Origin: Streptomyces flavofungini
GTDB lineage: Bacteria > Actinomycetota > Actinomycetes > Streptomycetales > Streptomycetaceae
Assembly: GCF_030388665.1 (NCBI RefSeq)
Contig: NZ_CP128846.1
Span: forward strand, 6,646,501-6,710,500
Reading direction: 5' to 3'
DNA length: 64,000 nt
A model generated the notes under the pieces. The model did no database searches. It was not told where the DNA came from and saw nothing but the letters and a program-made list of their open reading frames with translations. Below are positions 8,804-27,928 of this stretch, in pieces. The position numbers and the translations under genes were made by a program. Each line of letters begins with the position of its first letter. Positions within the stretch are counted from its first letter, which is position 1.

Positions 8804-8817
8804 TGAAACTTGTTCTA
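8804..8817. promoter_or_regulatory. KstR-type operator box 1
   Basis: TGAAACTTGTTCTA fits the KstR consensus TnnAACnnGTTnnA at every fixed position. It ends 53 bases before the GTG of the glycosyltransferase gene and lies 214 bases from the KstR-like gene. TACATT at 8816-8821 overlaps its right end and could be a -10 element, so binding there would block transcription of the rightward operon. Confidence 0.72.
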
Positions 8818-8870
8818 CATTACCGTCCCGGCGTAATCTCGCGGACAACTGAAGGCAGAAGGGGGCCAGA

Positions 8871-10337
8871 GTGACCGCTGAGGCCATGGAGGCGGGTCCC
8901 CTGCCGGGGCCGGTGCCGGGTGCGACACCGGGCACGACGCCGGACGTGCCCCCGGGCGCGGCCGCCGACGGCGGCCGCCCGCTGCGCATCGCGCTCCTCA
9001 CGTACAAGGGGAACCCGTTCTGCGGCGGTCAGGGCGTCTACGTCCGCCACCTCTCCCGCGAGCTGGTCCGCCTCGGTCACCGCGTCGAGGTCATCGGCGC
9101 GCAGCCCTACCCCGTGCTCGACGAGGGCGAGGACCTGCGCGGCCTCGGCCTGACCGAGCTGCCGAGCCTGGACCTGTACCGCTCGCCGGACCCCTTCCGC
9201 ACGCCGAAGCGGGACGAGTACCGCGACTGGATCGACGCCCTCGAAGTCGCGACGATGTGGACCGGCGGCTTCCCCGAGCCGGTCACCTTCAGCCTGCGCG
9301 CCCGCCGCCACCTGCGCGCCCGGCGCGGCGAGTTCGACGTCGTGCACGACAACCAGACCCTCGGCTACGGCCTCCTCGGCGACCTCGGCGCCCCCCTGGT
9401 GACGACCGTCCACCACCCCATCACCGTCGACCGCCGCCTGGAGCTCGACGCCGCGCCCGACTGGAAGCGTCGCGCCTCGGTCCGCCGCTGGTACGCGTTC
9501 ACACGGATGCAGAAGCGCGTCGCACGGCGGCTTCCGTCGATCCTCACGGTGTCCGGCACCTCGCGCCAGGAGATCGTCGACCACCTCGGCGTCCGGCGCG
9601 ACCGGATCCACGTCGTCCACATCGGCGCCGACACGAACCTCTTCTCGCCCGACCCGGCCGTGCCCGAGGTGCCGGGCCGGATCGTGACGACGTCCAGCGC
9701 CGACGTACCGCTGAAGGGCCTGATCCACCTCGTCGAGGCCCTCGCCAAGGTCCGCACCGAGAACCCCGCCGCGCACCTCGTCGTCGTCGGCAAGCGCGCC
9801 GAGGACGGCCCGGTGGCGCAGGCCATCGAGAAGTACGGCCTCGAAGGCTCCGTGGAGTTCGTCAAGGGCATCACCGACGAGGAGCTCGTCGACCTGGTCC
9901 GCTCGGCCCAGATCGCCTGCGTCCCTTCGCTGTACGAGGGCTTCTCGCTGCCCGCCGCCGAGGCCATGGCGACGGGGACGCCGCTGCTCGCCACGACGGG
10001 CGGGGCGATCCCCGAGGTCGCGGGCCGCGACGGCGACACCTGCCTCGCGGTGCCCCCGGGCGACGCGGGCGCGCTCGCCGCGGGCCTCACCCGGCTCCTC
10101 GGCGACCCGGAGCTGCGGGCGCGGCTCGGCGCCGCGGGCCGGGCCCGGGTCCTCGCCAGGTTCACCTGGGCCCGCGCGGCCCAGGGCACCGCGGAGCTGT
10201 ACCGCGCGGCGATCGACCGCTCCGCGGGCCGGGGCGCCGCCCGCGCGGCGGCCCGCGGCCACGCGCTGCCGACGGCCGGGGCCGCGGCCCGCGGCGAAGT
10301 TGCAGGACCTCAACCCGAAAGCAGGGCCACGTGCTGA
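8871..10337 (+). CDS. Family 4 glycosyltransferase
   Basis: The 488-residue GT-B fold enzyme has an N-terminal acceptor domain that includes the glycine-rich GGQGVYVRHLSREL segment (about 48-65). The C-terminal nucleotide-sugar domain includes the GT4 Glu-x7-Glu motif EGFSLPAAE near residue 362. It should transfer a sugar from a nucleotide donor to a lipid, carotenoid or cell-surface acceptor that cannot be deduced here. The GTG start follows a GAAGGCAGAAGGGGG site. The first 30 residues are Pro/Gly-rich. It is the first gene of a tight three-gene operon behind KstR-type box 1, and it overlaps the next start by 7 bases. Its last 35 residues are Arg/Ala-rich. Confidence 0.88.
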   Translation: MTAEAMEAGPLPGPVPGATPGTTPDVPPGAAADGGRPLRIALLTYKGNPFCGGQGVYVRHLSRELVRLGHRVEVIGAQPYPVLDEGEDLRGLGLTELPSLDLYRSPDPFRTPKRDEYRDWIDALEVATMWTGGFPEPVTFSLRARRHLRARRGEFDVVHDNQTLGYGLLGDLGAPLVTTVHHPITVDRRLELDAAPDWKRRASVRRWYAFTRMQKRVARRLPSILTVSGTSRQEIVDHLGVRRDRIHVVHIGADTNLFSPDPAVPEVPGRIVTTSSADVPLKGLIHLVEALAKVRTENPAAHLVVVGKRAEDGPVAQAIEKYGLEGSVEFVKGITDEELVDLVRSAQIACVPSLYEGFSLPAAEAMATGTPLLATTGGAIPEVAGRDGDTCLAVPPGDAGALAAGLTRLLGDPELRARLGAAGRARVLARFTWARAAQGTAELYRAAIDRSAGRGAARAAARGHALPTAGAAARGEVAGPQPESRATC

Positions 10338-11101
10338 CCGTCGACTTCACCCGCTTCCCGCTCGCCGCGGGGGACCGCGTGCTCGATCTGGGCTGCGGGG
10401 CGGGCCGTCACGCCTTCGAGTGCTACCGGCGCGGCGCCCGGGTGGTCGCCCTCGACCGGAACGCCGAGGAGATCCGCGAGGTCGCCAAGTGGTTCGCGGC
10501 GATGAAGGAGGCGGGGGAGGCCCCGGCGGGCGCGAGTGCCACCGCCATGGAGGGCGACGCCCTCAACCTGCCCTTCCCCGACGAGTCGTTCGACGTCGTG
10601 ATCATCTCCGAGGTGATGGAGCACATCCCGGACGACAAGGGCGTGCTCGCCGAGATGGTCCGGGTCCTCAGGCCCGGCGGCCGGATAGCCGTGACCGTCC
10701 CGCGCTACGGCCCCGAGAAGGTCTGCTGGGCGCTCAGCGACGCCTACCACGAGGTCGAGGGCGGCCACATCCGCATCTACAAGGCGGACGAACTCCTCGC
10801 CAGGATGCGCGAGTCGGGCCTCAAGCCCTACGGCACGCACCACGCGCACGCGCTGCACTCGCCGTACTGGTGGCTGAAGTGCGCGTTCGGAGTCGGCAAG
10901 GACGGTGACGACGCGGCGCTGCCGGTGCGGGCGTACCACAAGCTCCTGGTCTGGGACATCATGAAGAAGCCGCTGGTGACGAAGGTCGCCGAGCAGGCGC
11001 TGAACCCGCTGATCGGCAAGAGCTTCGTGGCGTACGCGACCAAGCCGCACCTGCCCGCCGCCACCCCCGACCCGGCCGCCGACGCGAAGGCCGGGGCGTG
11101 A
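10331..11101 (+). CDS. Class I SAM-dependent methyltransferase
   Basis: The 256-residue protein starts at a GTG inside the end of the glycosyltransferase gene. SAM-binding motif I is VLDLGCGAGRH at about 19-29, the acidic residue of motif II lies in ALDRNAEE, and motif IV/post-I is FDVVIISEVMEHIPD near 95-109, followed by LRPGGRIAVTVPRY. The acceptor is unknown. It resembles UbiE/Methyltransf_11 enzymes that act on small molecules or lipids. Overlap with both neighbours implies coupled translation and a shared substrate or pathway with the glycosyltransferase and the downstream alpha-toroid protein. Confidence 0.88.
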   Translation: MLTVDFTRFPLAAGDRVLDLGCGAGRHAFECYRRGARVVALDRNAEEIREVAKWFAAMKEAGEAPAGASATAMEGDALNLPFPDESFDVVIISEVMEHIPDDKGVLAEMVRVLRPGGRIAVTVPRYGPEKVCWALSDAYHEVEGGHIRIYKADELLARMRESGLKPYGTHHAHALHSPYWWLKCAFGVGKDGDDAALPVRAYHKLLVWDIMKKPLVTKVAEQALNPLIGKSFVAYATKPHLPAATPDPAADAKAGA

Positions 11102-12171
11102 CGATTCCCGAGCGCACCGAACACCTGGTCCTGCCGGGTGTGCTGACGGCCGATCAGGCGACGGCCACGGTCCGCGGCATCCTCGCCGTCCAGCGCGAGG
11201 ACGGCGCCATACCCTGGTTCCGCGGCCACCACCTCGACCCGTGGGACCACACCGAGGCCGCCATGGCCCTGGACGCCGCCGGCGAGCACGCGGCCGCCGC
11301 TCGCGCCTACGAGTGGCTGGCCCGGCACCAGAACCAGGACGGCTCCTGGTACGCGGCGTACGCCGACGGCGACCCCGACGACGTCACCGACCGCGGCCGC
11401 GAGACCAACTTCTGCGCGTACGTGGCCGTGGGCGTCTGGCACCACTACCTGAGCACCGGCGACGAGGCGTTCCTCGACCGCATGTGGCCGGTCGTCGTCG
11501 CGGCCGTCGAGTTCGTCCTCGAACTCCAGCAGCCCGGCGGCCAGATCGGCTGGAAGCGGGACCCCGACGGCACCCCCGTCCCGGACGCCCTGCTCACCGG
11601 CTGCAGCTCCGTCTACCAGGCGCTGCGCTGCGCCCTGGCCCTCGCCGACCTGCGCGACGACCCGCAGCCCGACTGGGAGCTCGCGACCGGCGCCCTCGGC
11701 CACGCCATCCGCCACCACCCCGAGCGCTTCCTCGACAAGGACCGCTACTCCATGGACTGGTACTACCCGGTCCTCGGCGGCGCGGTCACCGGAGCGCAGG
11801 CCAAGTCCCGCATCGAGGACGGCTGGGACCGCTTCGTCGTCCCCGGCCTCGGCGTGCGCTGCGTCCACCCCAACCCGTGGGTGACCGGCGGCGAGAGCGC
11901 CGAACTCGCCCTAGCCCTCTGGGCGATCGGCGAATCGGACCGCGCCCTGGACGTCCTCAGGTCCATCCAGCACCTGCGCGACCCCGAGTCGGGCCTGTAC
12001 TGGACGGGCTACGTCTTCGAGGACGCCGCGATCTGGCCCGTCGAGCTCACCACCTGGACGGCGGGCTCGCTGCTCCTCGCGGTGGCGGCACTCGGCGGCG
12101 ACGAGGCGACGTGCGGGGTGTTCTCGGGGACGGGGCTGCCGCTCGGCCTCGACCCGGACTGCTGCGGCTGA
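11098..12171 (+). CDS. Alpha-toroid protein (annotated elsewhere as prenyltransferase-like), function unknown
   Basis: The 357-residue protein overlaps the methyltransferase stop (GTGA). Repeating helical pairs with Gly-x-x-x-W/D motifs, such as GAIPWFRGHHLDPWDHTEAA, WLARHQNQDGSWYAAY and DPESGLYWTGY, indicate an alpha/alpha toroid like terpene cyclase, prenyltransferase beta or glycosidase barrels. The squalene-cyclase DxDD motif was not found. Conserved acidic and Trp residues line several repeats, so a carbohydrate-active or isoprenoid-related enzyme is equally possible. It is third in the KstR-box operon, and its close coupling suggests that it acts on the same product as the two enzymes before it. 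Confidence 0.75.
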   Translation: MTIPERTEHLVLPGVLTADQATATVRGILAVQREDGAIPWFRGHHLDPWDHTEAAMALDAAGEHAAAARAYEWLARHQNQDGSWYAAYADGDPDDVTDRGRETNFCAYVAVGVWHHYLSTGDEAFLDRMWPVVVAAVEFVLELQQPGGQIGWKRDPDGTPVPDALLTGCSSVYQALRCALALADLRDDPQPDWELATGALGHAIRHHPERFLDKDRYSMDWYYPVLGGAVTGAQAKSRIEDGWDRFVVPGLGVRCVHPNPWVTGGESAELALALWAIGESDRALDVLRSIQHLRDPESGLYWTGYVFEDAAIWPVELTTWTAGSLLLAVAALGGDEATCGVFSGTGLPLGLDPDCCG

Positions 12172-12213
12172 GGTCGCGGGCCCCGTGGGCGGCCCGACAG
12201 GTCGGCGCGGCGC

Positions 12214-12576
12214 TCAGCGCCGCCGCAGCCGCCCCGCGAGGAAGTGCCCCGCGACGAGGTAGACGACGGCCGCGAGGCCGTACCCCGCGACCACACGGGC
12301 CCAGCGCTCGTCGAACGTGAACAGGTCGTGCGACCAGCCCGCCAGCCACCTGGCCGCGTCCTGCACGACCTGCACGAGGTCATTGGCGCGGTTGGCGTCC
12401 GACAGGTCGATCAGGACCCACCGGGCGAGAAGGAAGGCCATCACATCCGCGATGACGACGACCTCCACGGCGTCCGTAGCGCGTCGTTCGTGTACGGGGG
12501 CATGGGGGGGCGGGTACCGGGGGAGGGGTGGCCGCAACCTGTGGGGCCCGCTCCGGTCGGTCGGGGCGGCCGTCAT
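12214..12576 (-). CDS. Small membrane protein, unknown function
   Basis: Up to 120 residues, with a hydrophobic first segment (VVVIADVMAFLLARW), an amphipathic middle (LSDANRANDLVQVVQDAARWL) and a C-terminal transmembrane helix (GYGLAAVVYLVAGHFL) ending in LAGRLRRR. The N-terminal 35 residues are Pro/Arg-rich and may be untranslated. A GTG at Val of VEVVVIADV would give a shorter protein, and no candidate start has a strong ribosome site. It converges on the alpha-toroid gene. No function can be assigned. Confidence 0.6.
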   Translation of the reverse strand: MTAAPTDRSGPHRLRPPLPRYPPPHAPVHERRATDAVEVVVIADVMAFLLARWVLIDLSDANRANDLVQVVQDAARWLAGWSHDLFTFDERWARVVAGYGLAAVVYLVAGHFLAGRLRRR

Positions 12577-12726
12577 GGGGGCCGTGGGGTGCCTGGCGCG
12601 TCGGCTGCGGGGCGCCCGCCGCGTCGGCCGGAGCGCCAGGCACCCCGCTGGCCGCGCCCCGATGGCGGGCCCGGCCGCACCGGGTGAGGCTGGCGGCGGC
12701 CGCCCCCACCCCGCCCGGAGGTCACC

Positions 12727-13254
12727 GTGCCCCGCTCCCTGCTCCGCCCCCTCGTCCCGCTGCTCCTCTGCGCCCTCCTGGCGGGGACGGCTGCGTGCGG
12801 CGGCGACAAGGACTCGGCCGCGAGTCCCACGAGCACGGTCGAACGCCAGAAGCTCGCGAAGACGCGGTTCGTCGCCAACGCGGGGCTCGCCGCCGGGGCG
12901 ACGTACCAGTGGATCGTGAAGCCCTACCGCGCGGGCACCTTCGCCTCCGGCGCCGACGGCCGCCGCTTCGCCCTCATCAAGGCGGGCCTCGCCGGGGCGT
13001 TCACCTACAACCGCCTCAAGGCCGCGCTGCGCAACGCCAAGGGCGACCCGACCCTGGCCAAGGCCGTCGCCCCGCTCACCGCCGGCATCGACGCCCTCAA
13101 GGACCTGCCGTCCAAGCTCCGCAAGGGCGACTCCACGGAGTCCGTGGTCAAGTCCTTCGACGGCGCCATCAACAAGGTGAAGGACGCGGGGAAGGGCGCG
13201 GGGGCCGAGGTGACGGACAAGGTGCCGTCGGCGGGGGAGCTGGCGAAGGGCTGA
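12727..13254 (+). CDS. Probable lipoprotein, unknown function
   Basis: The 175-residue protein has a lipoprotein-type signal: MPRSLLRPLVPLLLCALLAGT followed by AACGG, with the putative lipidated Cys near 23. The residue at -3 is Thr, slightly off the classical lipobox. The mature part is helical and Ala/Lys-rich with no recognised domain (GTFASGADGRRFALIKAGLAGAFTYNRLKAAL and a Lys/Asp-rich end). The GTG start has a GGAGG site 7 bases upstream. It probably sits on the outer face of the membrane. Neighbours give no clue. Confidence 0.72.
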   Translation: MPRSLLRPLVPLLLCALLAGTAACGGDKDSAASPTSTVERQKLAKTRFVANAGLAAGATYQWIVKPYRAGTFASGADGRRFALIKAGLAGAFTYNRLKAALRNAKGDPTLAKAVAPLTAGIDALKDLPSKLRKGDSTESVVKSFDGAINKVKDAGKGAGAEVTDKVPSAGELAKG

Positions 13255-13416
13255 GAGCTGAGGGCTGAGGGCCGGGGGCCATGCGTCGGTCCTGGGCGTG
13301 CCTACCGAGAGGCCCTGTCTTCATGCGCGTACACGGGGCGGATCACCCTGGCGGGAAACCTGCTCGACCCGCACGTTCCATGATCAGTTGAGATACGGCT
13401 TCTCCGCCTTGCTGAA

Positions 13417-13440
13417 GCCGTCAACCCTCGGGTTGACGGC
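13417..13440. terminator. Perfect 10-bp stem-loop before the membrane protein gene
   Basis: GCCGTCAACC and GGTTGACGGC form a perfect 10-bp stem with a CTCG tetraloop, 160 bases after the lipoprotein stop and 68 before the next start. It is either a terminator of the upstream unit or an operator of the downstream one. No T-tract follows. Confidence 0.5.
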
Positions 13441-13507
13441 GTGCTCAACCCGAAGGTCGACTCACGGGCCGACGCCCCGATACGTCCCGCCCGGCAGGAT
13501 CGCAGAC

Positions 13508-14020
13508 ATGACGACCATCGACTACCTGATCTCAGCCGCGCTGATCTGCCTGGTCATCCCGCAGATCCGCGGAACCCGCCAGACGCTGCGCAATGCGCTG
13601 CTGCCGGTAGTGGCCGTGGCCGCTGCTGCCGCGTACTACCTGAAGTCCTTCCCCACCCAGGGGAACGACCTCCGGCTCGATCTCGTCGGCGTGCTCGTCG
13701 GCGGCGTCCTGGGCGTGGCCTGCGGTGCCACCACACGCCTGAGTCGTGACTCGGACGGCGTCGCACTGGCCAAGGCGGGGGCGGCCGCCGCGGTGCTCTG
13801 GATCGCGGGCATGGCATTCCGTGCCGGCTTCGAGATCTGGGCCACCCACACCGGCTCGACGACGGTCGCGCGGTTCAGCCGGGACAACCTGATCACGGGG
13901 TCGGCGGCGTGGACGGCTGCGCTGCTCCTGATGGCCCTCGCCCAGGTCCTGTGCAGGCTCGCCGTGGTCCGTCTCAAGGCCCGTCGAACCACTGCTCGTA
14001 CCGCGTCTGCGCATATCTGA
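13508..14020 (+). CDS. Four-helix membrane protein next to a two-component system
   Basis: The 170-residue integral membrane protein has four or five hydrophobic helices (for example LISAALICLVIPQIRG, LPVVAVAAAAAYYL, LVGVLVGGVLGVACGA and AWTAALLLMALAQVL). The start of the protein resembles DUF1453/CcdC-like membrane proteins, but that is a weak impression. The ATG at 13508 is chosen because the upstream extension is a non-coding-looking Arg/Ser/Thr-rich stretch. It precedes a sensor kinase gene by 116 bases in the same direction and may act as an accessory membrane component of that system. Confidence 0.72.
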   Translation: MTTIDYLISAALICLVIPQIRGTRQTLRNALLPVVAVAAAAAYYLKSFPTQGNDLRLDLVGVLVGGVLGVACGATTRLSRDSDGVALAKAGAAAAVLWIAGMAFRAGFEIWATHTGSTTVARFSRDNLITGSAAWTAALLLMALAQVLCRLAVVRLKARRTTARTASAHI

Positions 14021-14136
14021 ACCCGATGCCGTTCCGTCTTCCTTCGAGCGCCGAGTCCCCCCGTCGGCCCGCGCCCGCCGGGCGGGGGCCGACGTCAAGA
14101 GCGCGGTTGACCGGCCACGTCCCTATCCTTCAGAAC

Positions 14137-15360
14137 ATGACGGACCTCCCGGGTAGCCCGTCCACAGCGGTCAGTCCGCGCATGGCCGCCGCTCTGAGCG
14201 GTGTACGAGAACGCCGCGCGCACCGGGCCCGCCGTCTGCAGCCGGTGCTGTGGGGCATCGTGGTCACCATCGTCGTGCAGTCCCTGTACGCGGAACCGGG
14301 GCCGGGAGTACACGGGGTGCATCTCGCGGTCACCTTGACCCTCGCCGGGTGCGTCCTGCCCCTGGCCGCAGTGGCCGCGGGACGCTGGCAAGTCCTCGGC
14401 CCTCGGAGCTGCACCGCCTTCTGCCTGCTGACCAGTGGCTTCGGGCTCGCCGTGGGGGTCCTGCAGCCCGGCTCGATGTCGGTGCTGCCCCTCTCGGTGG
14501 CCGTGCTCACGGCCTTCCTGGTGCTGAGCCGACAGCACGCCGTTGTTCTCGGGGGCGTCCTCATGAGCGGACTGGTGGCCGCCGCACTCGCCGGGGTGGA
14601 CGGCGGCATCGGTACTCTGCTGAGCCAGCTGCTCTTCTGCGCGGTGCTCGCGCTGATGGCACTCAGCGTGCGTCAGGCGGGCGACAGTGAGGAGCGCGCA
14701 GAACTCCTGCTTGCGCAGTTGGCGGACGCCCGTGAGGCCGAGGCAGAGGCGGTGGCTCTGGCCGAGCGCACCCGCATCGCGCAGGAGCTGCACGACGTAC
14801 TGGCTCAAACCCTCTCCGGACTTGCCGTACAGATACAGGCCGCACGGCGGATGGCCCGGCGGGAGCAGACCGATGAGGACCTGCGGGAGCTACTGGACAG
14901 GGCCGGAAAGCTGGCGAAGGAAGGTCTCGGTGACGCCCGCCGCGCGGTCGGCGCCCTGCGCGGCCGGCAAACGCCCTCGCTGGACCGCCTTCCAGAGCTG
15001 GTGGAGCGCTACCGGGTGGATCTGGAACTCGACGTCCGCCTCTCCGTCACGGGCGCACCTCGGCCCCTGCCGGCAGACGCCGACTGGGCCCTCTACCGCG
15101 GCGCGCAGGAGTCCCTGACCAACGCCGCACGGTACGCGCGCGGCGCCCACATTTCAGTTGCTCTGCGTTACGAACCGACGGGTACGGCACTGACCGTCGA
15201 GGACCGGCGAGATGCCCCGGGGCCGATGCCGTCGCCGCTGGTGGTGGGGTCCGGTCTGGGGCTCACTGGCATGCGTGAGCGTTTCGACGAGGTGGGCGGC
15301 AAGGTCGACGCCGGACCGACCCCAAAAGGTTGGAAAGTAACGATGGAGGTCCCGGCATGA
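14137..15360 (+). CDS. NarL-type sensor histidine kinase
   Basis: The 407-residue kinase has about six N-terminal transmembrane helices between residues 25 and 185, then a HisKA_3 dimerisation domain with ERTRIAQELHDVLAQTLSGL, where the phospho-His is near 219. An HATPase_c domain follows, with an N-box in QESLTNAARYA and a G-box in GSGLGLTGMRERFDEVGG. The long membrane domain without a large external loop suggests sensing at or within the membrane. The stop overlaps the response regulator ATG (ATGA), so the two form one coupled pair. The signal is unknown. Confidence 0.9.
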   Translation: MTDLPGSPSTAVSPRMAAALSGVRERRAHRARRLQPVLWGIVVTIVVQSLYAEPGPGVHGVHLAVTLTLAGCVLPLAAVAAGRWQVLGPRSCTAFCLLTSGFGLAVGVLQPGSMSVLPLSVAVLTAFLVLSRQHAVVLGGVLMSGLVAAALAGVDGGIGTLLSQLLFCAVLALMALSVRQAGDSEERAELLLAQLADAREAEAEAVALAERTRIAQELHDVLAQTLSGLAVQIQAARRMARREQTDEDLRELLDRAGKLAKEGLGDARRAVGALRGRQTPSLDRLPELVERYRVDLELDVRLSVTGAPRPLPADADWALYRGAQESLTNAARYARGAHISVALRYEPTGTALTVEDRRDAPGPMPSPLVVGSGLGLTGMRERFDEVGGKVDAGPTPKGWKVTMEVPA

Positions 15361-16076
15361 CGGCATCCGGAAGCCCCGCCTCTGGTGAACAGATCAGGGT
15401 TCTTGTCGCCGATGATCAGCAGGTTGTCCGCAAAGGGCTCGTCCTGCTGCTCGGAATGCTGGACGGCATCGAGGTGGTCGGAGCCGCCCGCGACGGTGCC
15501 GAGGCGGTGGAGCTGGCTGTACGGCTCCGCCCGGACGTCGTCCTGATGGACCTCACCATGCCGGTACTCGACGGCATGGCGGCCACCGCGCTGTTGCGGG
15601 AGAAGCTGCCGGACAGCGCCGTGCTGGTGCTGACCACGTACGCCGATGACGACTCCATCTTTCCCGCGCTGAGGGCCGGGGCGCGTGGCTACCTGACGAA
15701 GGACGCGGACGACGACGAGGTCGAAGCGGCCATCCTGCGTGTCCACGCCGGCCAGACCTGGCTCGACCCCGTCGTGCAGGCCCGTCTGGTCTCTGCCGTC
15801 CGATCGGGGGAAGCCTCCCCGCCGGCTGAGCCCTGGGTGCAGGGCGCGGAACAAGAGGAGCGCGCCACACCTCCCGACGGACTGACCCCACGGGAGGCCG
15901 AGGTGCTCACCCTCATCGCTCGGGGCCTGTCCAACACGGAGATCTGCGCCCAGCTCGTGGTGAGCCAAGCGACGGTGAAGACACACATCAATCGCATCTT
16001 CGCGAAGATCGGAGCCAAAGACCGCGCCCAGGCCGTGGGCTACGCCTACCGGCACAATCTCGCCGACAGCGACTGA
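15357..16076 (+). CDS. NarL/LuxR-family response regulator
   Basis: The 239-residue regulator has a receiver domain at about 13-130, with an acidic pocket in VLVADDQQ, phospho-acceptor Asp near 65 in VVLMDLTMP and Lys in GYLTKDAD. A linker follows, then a LuxR helix-turn-helix at about 170-235 with LTPREAEVLTLIARGLSNTEI and VSQATVKTHINRI. It is the cognate partner of the overlapping kinase. The pair probably regulates the adjacent membrane protein gene, though no operator was identified. Confidence 0.92.
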   Translation: MTASGSPASGEQIRVLVADDQQVVRKGLVLLLGMLDGIEVVGAARDGAEAVELAVRLRPDVVLMDLTMPVLDGMAATALLREKLPDSAVLVLTTYADDDSIFPALRAGARGYLTKDADDDEVEAAILRVHAGQTWLDPVVQARLVSAVRSGEASPPAEPWVQGAEQEERATPPDGLTPREAEVLTLIARGLSNTEICAQLVVSQATVKTHINRIFAKIGAKDRAQAVGYAYRHNLADSD

Positions 16077-16079
16077 TGG

Positions 16080-16527
16080 ACGGCGGGCGGCGGGGGCACG
16101 CTCTACTACGACCTCGACATGCGCGCGTTCTCGCGTTCGGGAAGAACGACAATCGGGCACCCGGTACGGAGCGCGGGCGAGGGTCGGCGCGCCGGGCGGG
16201 CGACGCCCGGTCCCAGATGTCGCCGCGCGGGTCAAGCCGCTGATCAACCTCCAGGGCATGGCCGCGGACGAACAGGCCGACAGCTGCGTCTCCGACGAGG
16301 GCGAGTCGATCGCGCCTTTTCCCTCGTCCACGCGCACCAGTTCCTGAAGCACCAGGTGGACCACCAGAAGAAGCACGGCGAGCAGCTCAACGCGTACCTG
16401 CGCGATCACGAGGTGCGGGTGCCGACGCCGAACCCGGACCGGACGAAGGCGGACGCCCCGACCTGAACGCCCTGGGGCGGATCATCAACCACGTGGGCGC
16501 CGACACGGCCGCCCGCACCACCCTGAT
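16080..16527 (+). pseudogene. Decayed coding remnant with frameshifts
   Basis: No intact frame crosses this 455-base gap, but three good-codon segments follow one another in different frames. One reads INLQGMAADEQADSCVSDEG (around 16225-16300). One reads FSLVHAHQFLKHQVDHQKKH and onward (from about 16317). One reads PDLNALGRIINHVGADTAAR (from about 16460) and runs into the end of the convergent oxidoreductase gene. At least two single-base shifts would be needed to join them. The original protein is not recognised. Confidence 0.45.
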
Positions 16528-16531
16528 TCGG

Positions 16532-17545
16532 CTACGCGTTCAGCTCCGCGAGCACCCGCAGCGTGTCCGGGTCCCGTGCGAGCACCAGCAGGTCCGTCAC
16601 CGGCCCCTTGCGCCACTCCTGGAGCCTTTCGGCGATCCGCCCGCGCGGCCCGACCAGCGAGATCTCGTCGGCGAACGCGTCCGGCACGGCGAGCACGGCC
16701 TCCTCGCGCCGCCCGGCCAGGAACAGCTCCTGCACCCGCCGCGCCTCCTCCTCGTACCCCATCCGCCCCATCAGTTCGGCGTGGAAGTTACGGGCCGCGT
16801 GCCCCATGCCACCGATGTAGAAGCCGAGCATGGCCTTGACCGGGAGCAGCCCCTCGCGCACGTCGGCGCACACCGTGGCCCGCACGAGCGGCGCCACCAC
16901 GAACCCCGGCCGCAGCCCGTCGCCGAGCGACGCCTCGTACACGTCCGTGCGCGTCGGCGACCAGTACAGCGGCAGCCAGCCGTCCGCGATCCGGGCCGTC
17001 TGCGCGATGTTCCTGGGCCCTTCGGCGCCGAGCAGGACGGGCAGGTCGCCGCGCAGGGGATGGGTGATGGACTTCAGCGGCTTGCCGAGCCCGGTGCCGT
17101 CCTCGCCCGGGTAGGGCAGCGGGTGGAACCGCCCGTCAAGGGCCACGGGGGACTCCCGCCGCAGCACCTGCCGTACGACATCCACGTACTCCCGTGTCGC
17201 GGTGAGCGGCGACTTCGGGAACGGCCGCCCGTACCACCCCTCCACGACCTGCGGTCCCGAGAGCCCGAGCCCGAGCAGCATCCGCCCTCCGGAGAGGTGG
17301 TCGAGGGTGAGGGCGTGCATGGCGGTGGTGGTGGGCGAGCGGGCCGCCATCTGCGCGACGGCCGTGCCGAGCCGGATCCGCGAGGTGTGCGCGGCGATCC
17401 ACGTCAACGGCGTGAACGCGTCCGACCCCCAGGCCTCCGCCGTCCACACCGAGTCGTACCCGAGCCGCTCGGCCTCCTGCGCGAGCGCCAGGTGCCGGGC
17501 CTCGGGGCCGCGGCCCCAGTATCCGAGCGCGAGCCCGAGCCGCAT
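16532..17545 (-). CDS. LLM-class F420-dependent oxidoreductase
   Basis: The 337-residue TIM-barrel protein of the luciferase-like monooxygenase family starts MRLGLALGYWGRGPEARHLALAQEAERLGYDSVWTAE in two typical beta-alpha units. It continues with IRLGTAVAQMAARSP and the family segment DHLSGGRMLLGLGLSGPQVVEGWYG. Actinobacterial members closest to this pattern use F420 (deazaflavin) rather than FMN. The substrate is unknown. The ATG has a GGAGG site 4 bases upstream. It stands alone, 150 bases from the next gene on the same strand, and its 3' end abuts a decayed gene. Confidence 0.88.
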   Translation of the reverse strand: MRLGLALGYWGRGPEARHLALAQEAERLGYDSVWTAEAWGSDAFTPLTWIAAHTSRIRLGTAVAQMAARSPTTTAMHALTLDHLSGGRMLLGLGLSGPQVVEGWYGRPFPKSPLTATREYVDVVRQVLRRESPVALDGRFHPLPYPGEDGTGLGKPLKSITHPLRGDLPVLLGAEGPRNIAQTARIADGWLPLYWSPTRTDVYEASLGDGLRPGFVVAPLVRATVCADVREGLLPVKAMLGFYIGGMGHAARNFHAELMGRMGYEEEARRVQELFLAGRREEAVLAVPDAFADEISLVGPRGRIAERLQEWRKGPVTDLLVLARDPDTLRVLAELNA

Positions 17546-18865: not shown

Positions 18866-19891
18866 CTACCCGCGCAGGAAGCTCTCGATGCCGTCCGAGA
18901 GGCCCTGGGCCGCCTTCTGCCGCCAGGCGCCGCTCGTCAGCAGGGCCTCGTCCTTCGGGTCGCGCATGTTGCCGCACTCGATGAACACCTTCGGCACCTT
19001 CGAGAGGTTGAGGCCGCCGAGGTCGCCGCGGACGTCGAGGCCGGTGCCGCCCCCGACGTAGTTGGAGGGGGCGCTCTTGGTGGCGTTCAGGAACTTGCCC
19101 GCGATGCGCTCGCCCAGGTCGCGGGACGGCGCGACGATCGCGCTGGTGTCCGCGGCGCCGCCGCGCACCTTCGCGGGCAGGATGACGTGGAAGCCGCGGT
19201 TGCCGACGGCCGAGCCGTCCGCGTGCAGGGAGACCACGGCGTCGGCGCGGGCCTCGTTGCCGATCCGGGCGCGCTCGTCGACGCAGGGTCCGAAGGCGCG
19301 GTCGGCGTCGTGCGTGAAGCGGACCGTGGCACCCTGCCGGTGCAGCAGGTCGCGCAGGCGGTGGGCGAGGTCCAGGGTGAACCGGGCTTCCGTGTAGCCG
19401 CGGTTGGTGGACGTGCCCGTGGTGTCGCACTCCTTGGAGTTCGTCCCGATGTTCACCTGCCGGTTGATCTCGGCGGTGTGCTTGAAGTTCCCCGGGTTGT
19501 GTCCGGGGTCCACCACGACGACCTTGCCCTTGAGGGGGCCGGACGCGGCGGGGCGGCCGCCCGAGCCCTTCGTGGGGTCGGCGGACGGCTTGGGGGCGTC
19601 GGGATTGGATTTCGACGGCTCGGCCGGCTTGCCGGGCTTGTCGGAGTCATCGGGCTTGTCGGTCTTGCTCGCGTCCGCGCTCGGCTTCGAGGGCGAGCCC
19701 TGCTCCGAGCGGCTCGCGGACGGCAGCGTTCTGGCCGGTTTGCCGTCATCGGAGTCGCTCGCGGTGTCCATGAGGAGATACCCGGCGAGCGTGCCGGGCA
19801 CGAGCACGGCGAGGGCGACCGCGAGCGGGCGGCCACCGCGGAAGCGGCGGGGCGGGCGCGGTGGATGACTGTCCGGACCTACGTACGACAC
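18866..19891 (-). CDS. N-acetylmuramoyl-L-alanine amidase (Amidase_3)
   Basis: The 341-residue enzyme has one N-terminal signal-anchor helix (LAVALAVLVPGTLAGYLLM), a 75-residue Ser/Asp/Lys/Pro-rich linker that should cross the cell-wall mesh, and an Amidase_3 domain from about 120. The zinc-site residues appear as His in VVVDPGHNPG, His in VVSLHADGSA and catalytic Glu in VFIECGNMRD. Enzymes of this family cut the amide bond between MurNAc and the stem peptide during septation or wall turnover. Several Cys (KECDTT, GPCVDE, IECGN) could form disulfides outside the cell. The 280 bases between its stop and the repeat protein hold no other gene. Confidence 0.9.
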   Translation of the reverse strand: MSYVGPDSHPPRPPRRFRGGRPLAVALAVLVPGTLAGYLLMDTASDSDDGKPARTLPSASRSEQGSPSKPSADASKTDKPDDSDKPGKPAEPSKSNPDAPKPSADPTKGSGGRPAASGPLKGKVVVVDPGHNPGNFKHTAEINRQVNIGTNSKECDTTGTSTNRGYTEARFTLDLAHRLRDLLHRQGATVRFTHDADRAFGPCVDERARIGNEARADAVVSLHADGSAVGNRGFHVILPAKVRGGAADTSAIVAPSRDLGERIAGKFLNATKSAPSNYVGGGTGLDVRGDLGGLNLSKVPKVFIECGNMRDPKDEALLTSGAWRQKAAQGLSDGIESFLRG

Positions 19892-19901
19892 GGAAGCGAG
19901 C

Positions 19902-20564
19902 CTAGTCCTGCCGCAGGGAGCCCGCGCCGGTTCGGCGCAGGACGCGGAGCGAGTCCGTGGCCGAGATCTCCGTGAATGCCCCGGATTCCAGGGCCCGCAG
20001 ATAGATCCGGTACGGGGCCTGACCGGTCCACTCGTCCACCGGGTCGGGGAACACGTCGTGGATGACGAGCAGTCCGCCCTCCGCGACGTGCGGCGCCCAC
20101 CCCTCGTAGTCCGCGTTCGCGTGCTCGTCCGTGTGGCCGCCGTCGATGAAGACGAGGGCGACCGGGGAGTTCCACACCGCCGCGACCTGCGGGGAACGGC
20201 CCACGACGGCGATGACGTGGTCTTCGAGTCCGGCCCGGTGCAGGGTCCTGCGGAACGTCGGCAGCGTGTCCATGCGGCCGATCTCCGGGTCGACCGTCGC
20301 CGGGTCGTGGTAGTCCCAGCCGGGCTGCTGCTCCTCGCTGCCCCGGTGGTGGTCGACCGTGATCACGCTCACGCCGGCGGCGCGGGCCGCGTCCGCGAGC
20401 AGGATCGTGGAACGGCCGCAGTAGGTGCCGACTTCGAGCAGGGGCAGCCCGAGCGCCGCGGCCTCGGTGGCCGCCGCGTACAGGGCGAGGCCCTCCTTCG
20501 CGGGCATGAAGCCCTTCGCGGCCTCGAAGGCGTCGAGAACGTCGGGACCGGGCTCGGCGGCCAA
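19902..20564 (-). CDS. Class I SAM-dependent methyltransferase (O-methyltransferase-like)
   Basis: A 220-residue protein if it starts at the TTG at 20564, which has a GAGGAGG site 5 bases upstream. A longer frame to 20660 is Arg/Pro-rich and lacks such support. The fold is shown by LLEVGTYCGRSTILLADAAR (SAM motif I), SVITVDHHRGSEEQQ (motif II) and VALVFIDGGHTDEHANADYEGW (metal-type acidic motif), followed by GGLLVIHDVFPD. These features match the methyltransf_24/cephalosporin hydroxylase-like group. The substrate is unknown. It lies 10 bases after the amidase start on the same strand order, so the two may share a transcript. Confidence 0.82.
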   Translation of the reverse strand: MAAEPGPDVLDAFEAAKGFMPAKEGLALYAAATEAAALGLPLLEVGTYCGRSTILLADAARAAGVSVITVDHHRGSEEQQPGWDYHDPATVDPEIGRMDTLPTFRRTLHRAGLEDHVIAVVGRSPQVAAVWNSPVALVFIDGGHTDEHANADYEGWAPHVAEGGLLVIHDVFPDPVDEWTGQAPYRIYLRALESGAFTEISATDSLRVLRRTGAGSLRQD

Positions 20565-20757
20565 GGGTTCCTCCTCGGGGCGGGCGCGTGGAGGCCCGCG
20601 GGGTGCGCGTGGTGAACGGGCCCGCGTGTACGGACGCCCTGGGCGCCCGCTCACGGACATGGGGGCGCCCCATCGTGCACCACACCCCCGTCATGGGGGT
20701 GACGGGGGCGCGGTGGTCCGTGGGGTGGCCGGGTCGGCCCCGGCCGGGGCCTCCCCC

Positions 20758-22527
20758 TCAGGCCAGGACCTCGCTCTCGCCCGGCAGGGCCAGGTCGACC
20801 TCCACCGGCCGCTCCCCGCCGGGGTGCGCGGCGGACGCGGCGTGCGGGGCGTGTCCCGCGGCCGTCGCGGCGAGGACGTAGGGGCCGTCGGCCGGGACCT
20901 CCAGGGCGTAGCGCCCCTCGCCGTCCGTCAGCGCGGCGCCCGCCTGCCTGCCCCGGTGGTCGATCAGCGTGACCTTGGCCCGTGCGACCGGCGCCCCGGA
21001 GGCGGCGAGGACCCGGCCCTGGAAGCCGCCGAGGGCCCGCACGGCCCGCGCGGCCCGTTCGATGCCCGCGTCCTCCTCGCTGCTGGCCCGCAGCTGCGGC
21101 TTCTCCTGGGCGGGCGCGCGCCCCCGTCCCGGCAGGAACAGGGCGAGCAGCAGCCCGATGGCGACGGCGCCGGTGGCGATGAGGAAGGAGGTGCGGAAGC
21201 CCTCCATGGTGGGTATGTCGACCGGCCCCGCGTGGGTCGCGGTGTTGGCGAGCACCATGCCGATGACGGCGCTCGACACGGACGTGCCGATGGACCGCAT
21301 CAGGGTGTTGAGGCCGTTGGCCGCGCCCGTCTCGGACGGGTCGACGGCGCCGATGATGAGGGCGGGAAGCGAGGAGTAGGCGAGGCCGATGCCCGCGCCC
21401 ACGATCACCGAGATGACGATGGTCTGCCAGGCGGCGCTCATCAGGCCGAGGCCCGCTCCGTAGCCGACCGCGATGATCAGCAGGCCGAGGATGAGGGTGA
21501 CCTTCGGGCCGTACTTCGCCGAGAGGCGCGCGTACACCGGAGCGGTGAACATCATCGTCAGGCCGAGCGGTGCCACGCACAGGCCCGCGACGACCATGGA
21601 CTGGCCGAGGCCGTACCCGGTGGACGTGGGCAGTTGGAGGAGCTGGGGCAGGACGAGCGAGATGGCGTAGAAGGCGACGCCGACCATGATCGAGGCGAGG
21701 TTGGTGAGCAGCACCTCGCGGCGGGCGGTGGTGCGCAGGTCCACCAGCGGTGCCTGCAGGCGCAGTTCCATCACGCCCCACAGGAGCAGGACGGCGGCCG
21801 AGGCCCCGAAGAGCCCGAGGGTCAGGCCCGAACTCCAGCCCCAGTCGCTGCCCTTGGTGATGGGCAGCAGGAAGAGCACGAGTCCGGCGGACAGGCCGAG
21901 GGCGCCGGCCACGTCGAAGGTGCCCTCGGCGCGCAGCGGGCTCTCCGGCACCAGGAAGAAGATGAGCAGCATCGCGAGGACGCCGAGGCCCGCGGCCCCG
22001 AAGAACAGCGCGTGCCAGTCGGTGTGCTGGGCGACGAGGGCGGCGGCGGGCAGGGCGAGGCCGCCGCCGACGCCGATGGACGAACTCATCAGGGCCATCG
22101 CGGAGCCGAGCTTCTCGCGCGGCAGCTCGTCGCGCATCAGGCCGATGCCGAGCGGTATCGCGCCCATCGCGAAGCCCTGCAGGGCCCGGCCGACGATCAT
22201 CACGAGCAGGTCGTCGGTGAACGCGCAGACCAGGGAGCCGACGACCATCACGGCGAGGCTGGTGAGCAGCATCCGGCGCTTGCCGAAGAGGTCGCCGAGG
22301 CGGCCCATGATCGGCGTGGAGACGGCGCCCGCGAGCAGGGTCGAGGTCATGACCCAGGTGGCGTTGGAGGGCTCGGTGCCGAGCAGCGTCGGCAGGTCCT
22401 TGATGACGGGGACGAGCAGCGTCTGCATGACGGCGACGACGATGCCCGCGAAGGCGAGGACGGGGACGACACCGCCGGTTCCGCGCGTGGCGCGGTCACC
22501 GCGGGGGTGGGTCGTCGCGTGGGACAT
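20758..22527 (-). CDS. MFS multidrug-type transporter with C-terminal carboxypeptidase-regulatory-like domain
   Basis: The 589-residue protein has about 14 transmembrane helices in residues 20-475, with the MFS motif GRLGDLFGKRRM near 75 and the proton-antiporter region RALQGFAMGAIPLGIGL, which places it near the EmrB/QacA drug-efflux group. After a charged linker, residues 505-589 form a beta-sandwich of the CarboxypepD_reg type (GRVLAASGAPVARAKVTLID and TDGEGRYALEVPADGPYVL). This added domain would sit at the membrane surface, and its role is unknown. The start lies 173 bases from KstR-type box 2 on the divergent side, so it could be co-regulated with the thiolase gene. Confidence 0.88.
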   Translation of the reverse strand: MSHATTHPRGDRATRGTGGVVPVLAFAGIVVAVMQTLLVPVIKDLPTLLGTEPSNATWVMTSTLLAGAVSTPIMGRLGDLFGKRRMLLTSLAVMVVGSLVCAFTDDLLVMIVGRALQGFAMGAIPLGIGLMRDELPREKLGSAMALMSSSIGVGGGLALPAAALVAQHTDWHALFFGAAGLGVLAMLLIFFLVPESPLRAEGTFDVAGALGLSAGLVLFLLPITKGSDWGWSSGLTLGLFGASAAVLLLWGVMELRLQAPLVDLRTTARREVLLTNLASIMVGVAFYAISLVLPQLLQLPTSTGYGLGQSMVVAGLCVAPLGLTMMFTAPVYARLSAKYGPKVTLILGLLIIAVGYGAGLGLMSAAWQTIVISVIVGAGIGLAYSSLPALIIGAVDPSETGAANGLNTLMRSIGTSVSSAVIGMVLANTATHAGPVDIPTMEGFRTSFLIATGAVAIGLLLALFLPGRGRAPAQEKPQLRASSEEDAGIERAARAVRALGGFQGRVLAASGAPVARAKVTLIDHRGRQAGAALTDGEGRYALEVPADGPYVLAATAAGHAPHAASAAHPGGERPVEVDLALPGESEVLA

Positions 22528-22699: not shown

Positions 22700-22713
22700 T
22701 GAAACGTGTTCTA
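22700..22713. promoter_or_regulatory. KstR-type operator box 2
   Basis: TGAAACGTGTTCTA matches TnnAACnnGTTnnA fully. It ends 34 bases before the thiolase GTG, where bound repressor would block the promoter or the initiating polymerase. It is identical to box 1 except at one central spacer base. Confidence 0.75.
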
Positions 22714-22747: not shown

Positions 22748-23941
22748 GTGCAGAGCTACATCGTCGGCGTCGGCATGACGAAGTTCGAGAAGCCCGAGAC
22801 CCGCGACTGGCAGTACTGGGACATGGCGAAGGAGGCGGGCACCGCCGCGCTCGCCGACGCCCGGATCACCTACGAGCAAGTGGAGCAGGTCGTCGCCGGA
22901 TACTGCTTCCAGGCGTCGACGGCGGGCCAGCGGGCGGCATACGAGCTGGGCCTGACCGGAGTGCCGGTCTACAACGTCAACAACAACTGCGCCACGGGCT
23001 CCACGGCCCTCATGATGGCCCGGCAGTTCGTGGCGGGCGGGCAGAGCGAGTGCGTCCTCGCGCTCGGCTTCGAGAAGATGAAGCGCGGCTCGCTCGGCGG
23101 CGGCAGCGACGGCGACTTCGCGACATCCCCGGTGGCCCGGCACTACGGCGTCATGGCGGCCCGGCACGGCTTCGAGGCCTCGCCGCCCACGGCCCAGCTC
23201 TTCGGCAACGCGGCACGCGAGCACATGGAGCGGTACGGCACCACGCCCGCGCAGCTCGCGGCGGTCGCCGCGAAGAACCACCGGCACTCCGTCAACAACC
23301 CCAACGCCCAGTTCCAGGACGCGTACACGACCGAGGAGATCCTCGCCGCGCGGACCGTGCACGCCCCGCTCACCAAGCTCCAGTGCTCCCCGACGTCGGA
23401 CGGCGCCGCCGCCGTGGTCGTGGCGTCCGAGGCGTTCGTGGACCGGCACGGGCTCGGGGACCGCGCCGTCGAGATCACGGCCCAGGCCATGACGACCGAC
23501 ACCGCGGAGTCCTTCGCCTCCGGCAGCTGCCTCGACGTCGTCGGCACCCCGATGGCCCGCGCGGCCGCCCGCAAGGTGTACGACGCCTCGGGGCTCGGCC
23601 CCGACGACCTCGACGTCATCGAGCTGCACGACTGCTTCTCCGTCAACGAACTCCTCACCTACGAGGCCCTCGGCCTCTGCGAGGAGGGCGAATCCGGCAA
23701 GCTCGTGGAGTCCGGCGCGACGACGTACGGCGGCCGCTGGGTGGTGAACCCCTCCGGCGGCCTCATCTCCAAGGGCCACCCCCTGGGCGCGACCGGCCTG
23801 GCCCAGGCCACCGAACTCAGCTGGCAGCTGCGGGGCGAGGCGGGACCGCGCCAGGTCCCCGGGGCGCGGACGGCACTCGCGCACAACGTCGGCCTCGGCG
23901 GGGCGGCGATGGTGACGCTCCTCACGCGACCGCGGCTGTAG
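22748..23941 (+). CDS. Thiolase-family lipid-transfer protein (SCP-x/Ltp type)
   Basis: The 397-residue thiolase-fold protein starts at a GTG after GGAAGGAG. The nucleophile region is [13 protein letters not shown] near residue 84. The SCP-x signature HDCFSVNE lies near 297, and the C-terminal active-site block [14 protein letters not shown] lies near 336, with a final [11 protein letters not shown]. The SCP-x/Ltp branch, unlike classical FadA thiolases, has His-Asp-Cys-Phe in place of the usual second motif. In actinobacteria it works in sterol or branched-chain acyl-CoA degradation, either as a thiolase or as a retro-aldolase needing a DUF35 partner. No DUF35 gene is adjacent, which favours the thiolase role. 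KstR-type box 2 lies directly upstream. Confidence 0.88.
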
Positions 23942-26226: not shown

Positions 26227-27500
26227 CGAACGCGCTCCTCGTGGGCGCCCGCACGCGCGGGCGCCGCGTCGGTGACGTGGCCGGCGGCGGTGGCATCGTG
26301 GTCCTCGGTGACCGGCAGCACCGCCGTGACCCGGAAGCCACCGCGCGGCTCGGGCCCCGACTCCAGTGCGCCGCCCACCGCCGTGAGGCGTTCGGCCAGG
26401 CCCTTCAGCCCGCTGCCGGGCGTGGTCGAGCCTACGCCGCGGCCGTCGTCCGTGATCGTCAGCCGGGTCTGTTCGGAGGTCGCGGCGACCTCGATCTCGC
26501 ACCGGCGGGCCCGCGCGTGCCGTACGACGTTGGTGGCGGCCTCCCGCACCACCCAGCCGAGCAGCGCCTCCGCCCGGGGGCCGAGCGGCGGCCCCGACTG
26601 CCGTACGACCGCCTCGACGCCGGCCGCGTCGAGCAGTTCGCGGGCCCGGTCCAGCTCGGCGGCCAGCGCCGCGTCCCGGTAGCCGGTGACGGCCTCGCGG
26701 ATCTCGGTGAGCGCCTGGCGGCCCACGGACTCGATGTCGGTGATCTGCGCCAGGGCGGCGTCCATGCTCCGCGGGGCGAGGCGGCGCGCGGCCTCCGACT
26801 TCACGACGATCAGCGAGAGCGTGTGGCCGAGCAGGTCGTGCAGGTCGCGGGAGAAGCGCAGCCGCTCCTCGGCCACGGCCCGCCGCGCCAGCTCCTCACG
26901 GGCGGCGCGCAGGTCGCGCACCGCCTCCGACAGGGACAGGATCGCGGCCGTGACCATCGTGGACAGGAACGTGCCGTACGCGATGTTGATGCCGTCCCAG
27001 CCCTCCCGGAACCCGGCGACGGCGCCCGCGAGCGCGCTCAGCGAGAGGGCCACGGGACCGAGGCCGCGGCCCCGCAGGACGGCGCCCACGGCCAGGCCGA
27101 ACAGCGGGAAGTACATCAGCCAGTTGCCGCCGTACCCGGCGGCGAGGCCCACGGTGAGCGCGCCCATCACGACCAGCATGGCCAGCGTCGTGCGCGACTC
27201 CCGGGCCCGCTTGTCGAAGGCGCGGAAGGCCACGCCGATGTAGAGGGAGTTGAAGACGAACAGGCCGATGCCGCCGATCCACGGGTTCGGGGTCTTGCCC
27301 TGGAGGAGGTGCGAGAAGGCGCCGAGGCCCATCAGGAGCCACGGGAGGAGCGCGAAGCCGTTGGGCGGTCCCGACTGCACGAGGGCGTCCTGATCACCCG
27401 CCCGCTTCCGCTCCCGCCAGTCGGCCTTCTGCTCCCGCCAGGAGTCCCGCTGCCCCCGCAGGCCGTGCAGTCGGCAGGTCACCCTGTGCTTCCAGGACAT
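26223..27500 (-). CDS. Sensor histidine kinase (DesK-like, HisKA_3)
   Basis: The 425-residue kinase starts at the ATG at 27500 behind a GGGGAG site. A charged N-terminal segment (RLHGLRGQRDSWREQKADWRERKR) precedes five or six membrane helices at about 55-195. The HisKA_3 domain reads ERLRFSRDLHDLLGHTLSLI with the phospho-His near 239, and the HATPase has VREAATNVVRHARA, TITDDGRGV and GSGLKGLAERL. The DLHDLLGHTLSLIVVKSE block is the DesK pattern. It is divergent from the MaoC gene across a 428-base region holding KstR-type box 3, so both may be affected by that repressor. Confidence 0.9.
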   Translation of the reverse strand: MSWKHRVTCRLHGLRGQRDSWREQKADWRERKRAGDQDALVQSGPPNGFALLPWLLMGLGAFSHLLQGKTPNPWIGGIGLFVFNSLYIGVAFRAFDKRARESRTTLAMLVVMGALTVGLAAGYGGNWLMYFPLFGLAVGAVLRGRGLGPVALSLSALAGAVAGFREGWDGINIAYGTFLSTMVTAAILSLSEAVRDLRAAREELARRAVAEERLRFSRDLHDLLGHTLSLIVVKSEAARRLAPRSMDAALAQITDIESVGRQALTEIREAVTGYRDAALAAELDRARELLDAAGVEAVVRQSGPPLGPRAEALLGWVVREAATNVVRHARARRCEIEVAATSEQTRLTITDDGRGVGSTTPGSGLKGLAERLTAVGGALESGPEPRGGFRVTAVLPVTEDHDATAAGHVTDAAPARAGAHEERVR

Positions 27501-27928
27501 GTCTCGCTCCCCGATCGGGCGGGCCCGCGTCCCCCGCGGTCCCCGTGCCCTCGACAGTACGGAGCGGGGGTGCCGCCGCGGCAGTGAGGTCCGTACCGAG
27601 TCCGCCGGGACAAATGTCACCGCCGGCGGCCCCGGGCGGGCCCGCCCCGCCTTATCTGACGTGACGTCAGCACTCTTCCCAACCGTGGGGCGCTGGGCTA
27701 TACATGGGGCCATCGGCCTAGAACGCGTTCTAGAACGACCGGCGGACCGGTGGACCAGCAGATCGGCGGACCGGCGACCGGGACGCCTTGGCCGCCGCAG
27801 ACGACCTCGGTGCGGCCGACGGTGCGGACGGACGCACCGAGGTCTTCCCCGGAGCACACGGCACCACCGCCCGCACACCGCACGCGCCGCAGGACCGTCA
27901 CCCGCAGCCCGCGAGGAGCCGTCACCCC
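27501..27928. other. Divergent promoter region between kinase and MaoC genes
   Basis: These 428 bases contain KstR-type box 3 and a TGACGTCA palindrome at 27662-27669. An open frame from 27788 runs into the MaoC gene, but its Arg/His/Thr-rich translation before 27929 looks non-coding. No other gene was seen. The 197 bases between the box and the MaoC start allow a long leader. Confidence 0.6.
27719..27732. promoter_or_regulatory. KstR-type operator box 3
   Basis: TAGAACGCGTTCTA matches TnnAACnnGTTnnA and is the core of a perfect 16-bp palindrome (CTAGAACGCGTTCTAG at 27718-27733). It stands upstream of the MaoC / alcohol dehydrogenase / reductase gene set and 218 bases from the divergent sensor kinase start. 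Confidence 0.75.

Follow-up and report, generated by a model that had tools for sequence, protein, structure and literature searches.

A KstR-family TetR repressor gene and three KstR-type boxes lie within a 64,000 nucleotide stretch of the Streptomyces flavofungini genome (NZ_CP128846.1, positions 6,646,501 to 6,710,500), which we refer to at its full length as the window. The boxes precede an operon for methylmannose polysaccharide (MMP) synthesis, an SCP-x type thiolase gene, and a set of genes for a MaoC-type hydratase, an alcohol dehydrogenase (ADH) and a short-chain dehydrogenase (SDR). We consider it likely, from the arrangement and conservation of these elements, that the repressor is released by a bulky acyl-CoA and co-controls MMP synthesis and a beta-oxidation cycle of the MFE-2/SCPx type. 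We found no connection between KstR and methylmannose in the open-licence literature.

KstR-type boxes and their conservation

An earlier note on this DNA, made from its letters alone, reported three boxes in promoter regions fitting the pattern TnnAACnnGTTnnA, and all three are present, each 14-mer exactly at its coordinate (8804, 22700 and 27719). A fourth match at 29753-29766 (TTCAACATGTTCGA) is inside the ADH gene and is probably a coding coincidence. The four matches compare with 0.05 expected in the window from dinucleotide shuffles, none of 100 shuffles having four or more, and allowing one mismatch adds a single match, at 28508. The three boxes, all on the plus strand, are indeed intergenic, with their first bases 48-210 bp before start codons. 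Box 1 (TGAAACTTGTTCTA, 8804-8817) lies between kstR, as we call the repressor gene, and manT, 67 bp before the manT start (GTG 8871) and 214 bp before kstR; box 2 (TGAAACGTGTTCTA, 22700-22713) is 48 bp before the SCP-x gene (GTG 22748); and box 3 (TAGAACGCGTTCTA, 27719-27732) is 210 bp before the MaoC gene (ATG 27929), downstream of a -10-like TATACAT. The terminal TA of box 1 opens a -10-like hexamer, TANNNT, and this hexamer is found in all 73 boxes of the form TRRAACTTGTTCTA among 80 named Streptomyces loci; a TATAC element is located upstream of 28 box matches at MaoC loci.

The assignment of these boxes to the KstR type is borne out by the letter identity of boxes 2 and 3 with published mycobacterial KstR boxes. 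In the available part of Kendall et al. (2007; PMC1995591), TGAAACGTGTTCTA is given at Rv1894c/Rv1895 and Rv3545c/Rv3546 of M. tuberculosis (positive by electrophoretic mobility shift assay, EMSA), TAGAACGCGTTCTA at MSMEG_5932/5933 (positive by quantitative reverse-transcription PCR), and TAGAACGTGTTCTA, which is the site at 4572288 of the S. flavofungini genome, at kstR/fadE34 (EMSA positive). Box 1 is absent from the box tables of that paper, as available, and the motif is placed there ahead of the -10 element, which it overlaps in part.

Scanning the genome with the motif, as the earlier note had proposed, was informative in part: boxes are indeed found elsewhere, but the loose pattern TnnAACnnGTTnnA matches at 23 places in the 9.36 Mb genome (G+C 73.8%) against 13 for a reversed control, and is by itself weakly selective. 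Our case is therefore built on conservation and on a stricter pattern, TRRAACNNGTTCTA. Conservation of box 1 was followed in the 80 named Streptomyces loci, whose repressors are 85-99% identical. In 77 of them the 600 bp preceding the repressor gene include a box, mostly as the exact 14-mer, and the loci hold 118 box matches in total against 1 for the reversed control. They also share manT (80/80), meT3 (77) and mmpH (78), with meT1 in 49, a count limited by contig ends and the 10-kb flanks.

A genus sample of 61 genomes, 57 of which encode the repressor (E 1e-30 or better), was scanned with TRRAACNNGTTCTA on both strands, so that perfect palindromes count twice. The 57 genomes holding the repressor gave 250 matches against 45 for the control, and the four without it gave 2 against 2 (Mann-Whitney p 0.001 for genomes with versus without, uncorrected for kinship); ten named genomes gave 52 matches against 9, with palindromes again counted twice. 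In a class sample of 296 genomes the repressor is present in 25 of 28 Streptomyces. As judged from these counts, the predicted KstR-type switch is widespread, most sampled Streptomyces genomes having it.

The repressor

The kstR-like gene (7952-8590, minus strand) encodes a 212 aa product with PF17925 (TetR_C_20) and PF00440 (TetR_N) domains scoring over gathering, and matches five KstR-like PDB sequences at E values of 5e-41 to 5e-40, the next match being at 8e-9; a KstR-like TetR gene thus stands beside the first box, as had been proposed. No other close KstR homologue is encoded in its own genome, where a search with it scored 446 bits for the product itself and 36.8 bits, at 30% identity, for the next of the 41 TetR-like matches found. 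Its nearest named relatives are from Streptomyces, that of S. alboflavus being 99% identical. We also compared it with proteins from a mycobacteria-like family (f4; we use f1 for Streptomyces and f17 and f26 for two further families). The product is 42-48% identical to the f4 KstRs, and its helix-turn-helix matches those of three of them at 34-36 of 51 residues. Seven further TetRs encoded in its own genome reach 17-24 of 48-51, and an eighth, with an alignment of just 21 residues, is outside this comparison. The recognition helix is near-identical to that of KstR. A box in its own promoter region is present at 7952-8590 (box 1), as it is in the positive control of 23/23 f4 kstR loci, but the gene is divergent from manT and so lacks the divergence from fadE34 that characterizes KstR.

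A second f4 homologue, at 31-35% identity, might have been the true counterpart, but we discounted it, given the 42-48% identity of the window protein to f4 KstR; these second copies are also without a strict box nearby in seven fetched stretches. In a midpoint-rooted family tree, which carries a long-branch warning, the Streptomyces, f26 and f17 rows each fall on one branch, and the second f4 copies are placed within f4 KstR on a branch of 2.64, a placement used neither as root nor as proof of orthology. SCO2319 of S. coelicolor is named as a possible KstR orthologue, at 32% identity and without synteny, in the available part of PMC1995591, and we infer that it is the orthologue of the 7952-8590 repressor.

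The methylmannose polysaccharide operon

The gene set beyond box 1 had been taken for an undescribed glycosyl/methyl/toroid modification operon, but its products match those of the known MMP cluster, and we identify it as such on the strength of those matches. The first gene, manT (8871-10337, plus strand), encodes an alpha-(1,4)-mannosyltransferase of family GT4, which matches PDB 7qsg (an entry itself titled D-inositol 3-phosphate glycosyltransferase) at E 5.2e-129, with the next best at 2.3e-22. It is followed by a putative meT3 (10331-11101, plus strand), for a 3-O-methyltransferase, whose GTG start, picked by eye, overlaps the manT stop; by profile it is a generic methyltransferase (Methyltransf_11, E 7e-24), named from its position between manT and mmpH, where a gene is found in 40/40 fetched non-Streptomyces MMP loci. 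The third gene, mmpH (11098-12171, plus strand), encodes the MMP endomannosidase, the supposed toroid protein, and matches PDB 7qsj at E 6.6e-118 (next 0.014). The 1-O-methyltransferase gene meT1 (19902-20660, minus strand) lies nearby and matches PDB 6g7d at E 6.5e-70, an entry that we take to be MeT1, the name being that of a 2019 paper in PNAS. Homologues of ManT, MmpH and MeT1 are thus all present at the locus, and meT1 is within the fetched stretch in 34 of the 40 non-Streptomyces loci. MmpH is found at E 0.001 or better in 148 of the 296 class genomes (11 of these matches being weak) and in 28/28 Streptomyces.

The available part of Maranha et al. (2023; PMC9883506) gives the MMP cluster as manT, pmeT3, mmpH and meT1, with MeT1 included in its description, describes the ManT structure, reports a related MMP from S. 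griseus, and presents the sequestration of fatty acyl-CoAs as the proposed function of MMP; it mentions no regulator of the cluster.

The interval between mmpH and meT1 (12172-19901) contains a sensor kinase and response regulator (13909-16076), a small open reading frame (ORF; 12727-13254) found in 53/80 loci, and an Rv3717-like amidase gene (18866-19891). A gene for an MFS transporter, which carries a CarboxypepD_reg domain at its C-terminus (residues 503-579), occupies 20758-22527 on the minus strand, divergent from the SCP-x gene; meT1 follows it after 98 bp in the same orientation. The transporter may belong to the MMP set, and its gene is a possible second target of box 2, as the divergent sensor kinase gene named in the earlier note may be of box 3.

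Catabolic targets in the window and elsewhere

The SCP-x type thiolase, a lipid-transfer protein (22748-23941, plus strand), scores 624 bits against NF006102 (cut-off 436). Box 3 is followed, all on the plus strand, by genes for a MaoC-type enoyl-CoA hydratase of MFE-2 hydratase-2 architecture (27929-28801; PF01575 E 5e-32, PF22622 E 5e-21), a zinc ADH (28892-29974; PF08240/PF00107) and an SDR of the 3-hydroxyacyl-CoA dehydrogenase type (30009-30971; NF005862 486 bits, cut-off 414), the last matching PDB 7lg9 at E 5e-89 and also MFE-2 (2et6) and 17beta-HSD4 (1zbq). With boxes directly ahead of them, these two sets stand as candidate box targets with a lipid- or sterol-type catabolic theme, as first suggested. 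At MaoC the box is kept in 29 of the 30 best-matching genus loci, our own included, the thirtieth having GAGAACACGTTCTA with a first-letter mismatch; ADH is the next gene in 30/30 and SDR is present in 29/30.

The box is directly upstream of SCP-x in 6 of 27 orthologue loci. Twenty of the other 21 were fetched further upstream, and in 19 of these a box lies 2.2-3.5 kb before SCP-x; in 18 it can be seen to precede a large acyl-CoA dehydrogenase gene (at L226 the ORF picked is in another frame); the twentieth, L223, has no box in the stretch upstream of SCP-x, and the genus scan has one approximately 1.2 kb beyond. A 710-aa example of this dehydrogenase consists of two dehydrogenase halves. In 22 of 23 f4 loci it has a homologue, at 35-46% identity, in the gene divergent from kstR, and for the last locus the contig stretch was short; we refer to it as FadE34-like because of this homology. 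The FadE34-like gene is missing from the window, in which SCP-x is directly under box 2.

The earlier note had described a local regulon, and a purely local one is ruled out by further boxes elsewhere in the same genome. Those at 4572288 and 8481954 each precede an acyl-CoA dehydrogenase gene. Named genomes have counterparts of both, likewise under boxes, for which the best PDB matches are 4x28_D (E 2e-46) and 4x28_A (E 1e-133) respectively; 4x28 is ChsE5/ChsE4 of cholesterol side-chain oxidation. The third recurrent target is an MBL hydrolase (NF053820) of the Strvi_7410 family: where a box follows the repressor gene (24 loci), the script-picked ORF shows the MBL N-terminal sequence in 21. 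The S. flavofungini gene (genome 6642609-6643634, minus strand) is 2.9 kb left of the window, with a one-mismatch box, CGAAACAAGTTCTA, over its promoter, and window genes 108-7009 lie between it and the repressor gene. Together, MaoC, SDR, SCP-x and the acyl-CoA dehydrogenases would make up a complete MFE-2/SCPx-type beta-oxidation cycle.

Genes for a sulfotransferase and then an MPAB/Lcp-type rubber oxygenase-like protein are located downstream of the ChsE4-like gene in the 8481954 region (L028:5083-9569), and are possible further members of the regulon. Several other genome sites were judged non-functional, either because they are inside script-called genes (9013583, 3585084, 7511482, 1346502 and 7553103) or for want of a convincing target (C3:16970 and 7731198), and in the ten named genomes the boxes L117, L119, L124 and L212 are without a sensible downstream gene.

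Distribution beyond Streptomyces

MmpH is encoded in 24 genomes of family f26, which is unrelated to Streptomyces; ten of these have a KstR-family match of 200 bits or more, in nine cases within a few kb of mmpH. These nine loci were fetched because of that proximity, and in all nine the repressor gene is divergent from manT; the intergenic palindrome is AGGAACACGTTYCA-like in eight and AGAAACTCGTTTCA in L416, with 7 or 8 of the 8 core letters. Of the 11 MMP loci fetched from family f17, five have a KstR-family gene within the stretch and four have a strict box before manT or meT1; at L292, L297 and L301 the box is before meT1 with no kstR beside it. At a further f26 locus, L328 (genome G323), a KstR-family gene is divergent from a FadE34-like gene, with TAGAACGTGTTTCA, and not from manT.

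Discussion

Starting from the observed genes and boxes, their positions and their conservation, we propose a model in which binding, repression, ligand and physiological reason are all predicted. The boxes would be the operators of the repressor encoded at 7952-8590, a dimer of which would occupy the -10 region at the manT, SCP-x and distant acyl-CoA dehydrogenase promoters, and a position just downstream of the -10 at MaoC, so blocking RNA polymerase; this occlusion is suggested by the box positions and by the mycobacterial precedent. By analogy with the KstR family, release would be brought about by the CoA thioester of an acid that is bulky, branched or alicyclic. Release would turn on the beta-oxidation cycle (ChsE4-, ChsE5- and, in most relatives, FadE34-like dehydrogenases, MaoC, SDR and SCP-x), the MBL hydrolase and ADH, and also synthesis of MMP, the cytoplasmic polymer for which sequestration of fatty acyl-CoAs has been proposed. 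Acyl-CoA load would thus raise oxidation capacity and the holding polymer together.

Several observations weigh against this model. The repressor scores 200 bits against the NCBIfam KstR model NF033703, below the cut-off of 280, which is passed by only 23 of the 296 class genomes, all in family f4; we therefore call it KstR-like, or of the KstR family, rather than KstR. The strict kstR/manT box is absent in 3 of the 80 named loci. Three Streptomyces of the class sample have mmpH without the repressor, and one of them, G231, retains a good manT box (TGAAACTTGTTCCA), so that loss of the box is not strictly tied to loss of the repressor; the other two, G267 and G302, have no core motif before manT. 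MaoC is found in at least 50 of the 57 repressor-holding genus genomes and in none of the four without the repressor (p 6e-4), a result obtained with an off-frame query of reduced sensitivity, so that 50 of 61 is a lower bound; SCP-x at 600 bits or more is present in 27 of the 57 and none of the four, which is not significant (p=0.12). Lastly, a box lies within 500 bp of manT or meT1 in none of 18 f4 MMP loci and none of 11 loci of other families, and the link between repressor and MMP, as traced through these genomes, is old or repeated but not universal.

The best-surviving alternative is that the regulon serves the catabolism of environmental sterol or bile-acid side chains, control of MMP being a by-product of autoregulation by a repressor that happens to be encoded beside manT. 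In mycobacteria, ChsE4/ChsE5, relatives of FadE34, SCP-x and MFE-2-type enzymes act on steroid side chains, and the kstR/manT box could act for kstR alone. However, box 1 is near to and oriented towards manT, with its TANNNT, and is some three times as far from kstR, and the f17 boxes before meT1 have no kstR at their side. Moreover, a search of the S. flavofungini genome with NF009479 (listed as PRK12845.1), which we take to represent the 3-ketosteroid delta1-dehydrogenase (KstD) family, gave nothing better than E 4e-6, and none of the 61 genus genomes has a match over the cut-off, though 17 have strong matches below it. According to the available part of Bergstrand et al. (PMC4810484), 55 of 57 Streptomyces genomes lack a steroid pathway. 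On these two grounds complete sterol breakdown is disfavoured: of the link to lipid or sterol catabolism drawn by the earlier note, the lipid- and sterol-type catabolic genes stand, and sterol catabolism in the full sense is rejected as unlikely in this genome. We regard the side-chain explanation as possible but distinctly the less probable one.

That some other TetR protein reads the boxes, the 7952-8590 product having different operators, we think very improbable. TetR half-sites can look alike, and the genome offers 41 TetR-like matches; against this, there is no second close KstR homologue, the recognition helix is that of KstR in nearly every residue, the box stands beside the orthologous gene in 77/80 loci, and boxes are not in excess where the gene is missing from the genome (2 vs 2). 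Chance matches in promoter-like DNA, which the 23 loose matches against 13 might suggest, are refuted by the keeping of exact 14-mers across the genus, the excess over reversed controls and the 0.05 expected per window, and can be given practically no weight.

Returning to joint control of MMP and beta-oxidation by the KstR-like repressor, we can speculate further that control of MMP is an old, perhaps the original, duty of the KstR family, with KstR as a sensor of acyl-CoA load setting MMP and a matching beta-oxidation cycle, and with its sterol role a later specialization. This is suggested by the box shared between neighbouring repressor and manT genes in Streptomyces and part of f26, by the boxes that some f17 loci have at manT or meT1, and by the lack of a box at the MMP cluster in f4, the sole holder of repressors over the KstR cut-off. 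We offer it tentatively, and would not be surprised to see it fail.

The function of MMP is still a proposal, and a predicted KstR-type operator shared with a defined beta-oxidation cycle makes that function testable in a tractable genus. Such an operator would also give a KstR-family protein a role in bacteria mostly reported to be without steroid pathways, and names likely targets for the regulator known in S. coelicolor as SCO2319, on the inferred orthology.

The locus resembles the MMP cluster of PMC9883506 in its manT-meT3-mmpH order and its strong matches to the solved ManT, MmpH and MeT1 chains, and differs in that meT1 is 7.7 kb away on the opposite strand. The regulon is like that of mycobacterial KstR (Rv3574/MSMEG_6042) in its repressor family, its 14-bp palindrome, the overlap with the -10, several identical boxes, and its FadE34-, ChsE4/ChsE5-type and thiolase targets. 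It is unlike it in having the repressor gene divergent from manT rather than fadE34, in placing an MMP operon and an MBL hydrolase under boxes, in belonging to a genome without a recognizable KstD, and in the score of its repressor under the equivalog cut-off. Peroxisomal beta-oxidation by MFE-2 and SCPx handles branched and bile-acid CoA esters. In the predicted Streptomyces cycle the components are separate bacterial genes, and FAD (flavin adenine dinucleotide) acyl-CoA dehydrogenases replace the oxidase, but the MaoC protein has the MFE-2 hydratase-2 N-terminal domain, the SDR is close in sequence to the MFE-2 dehydrogenase, and the thiolase is of the SCP-x type.

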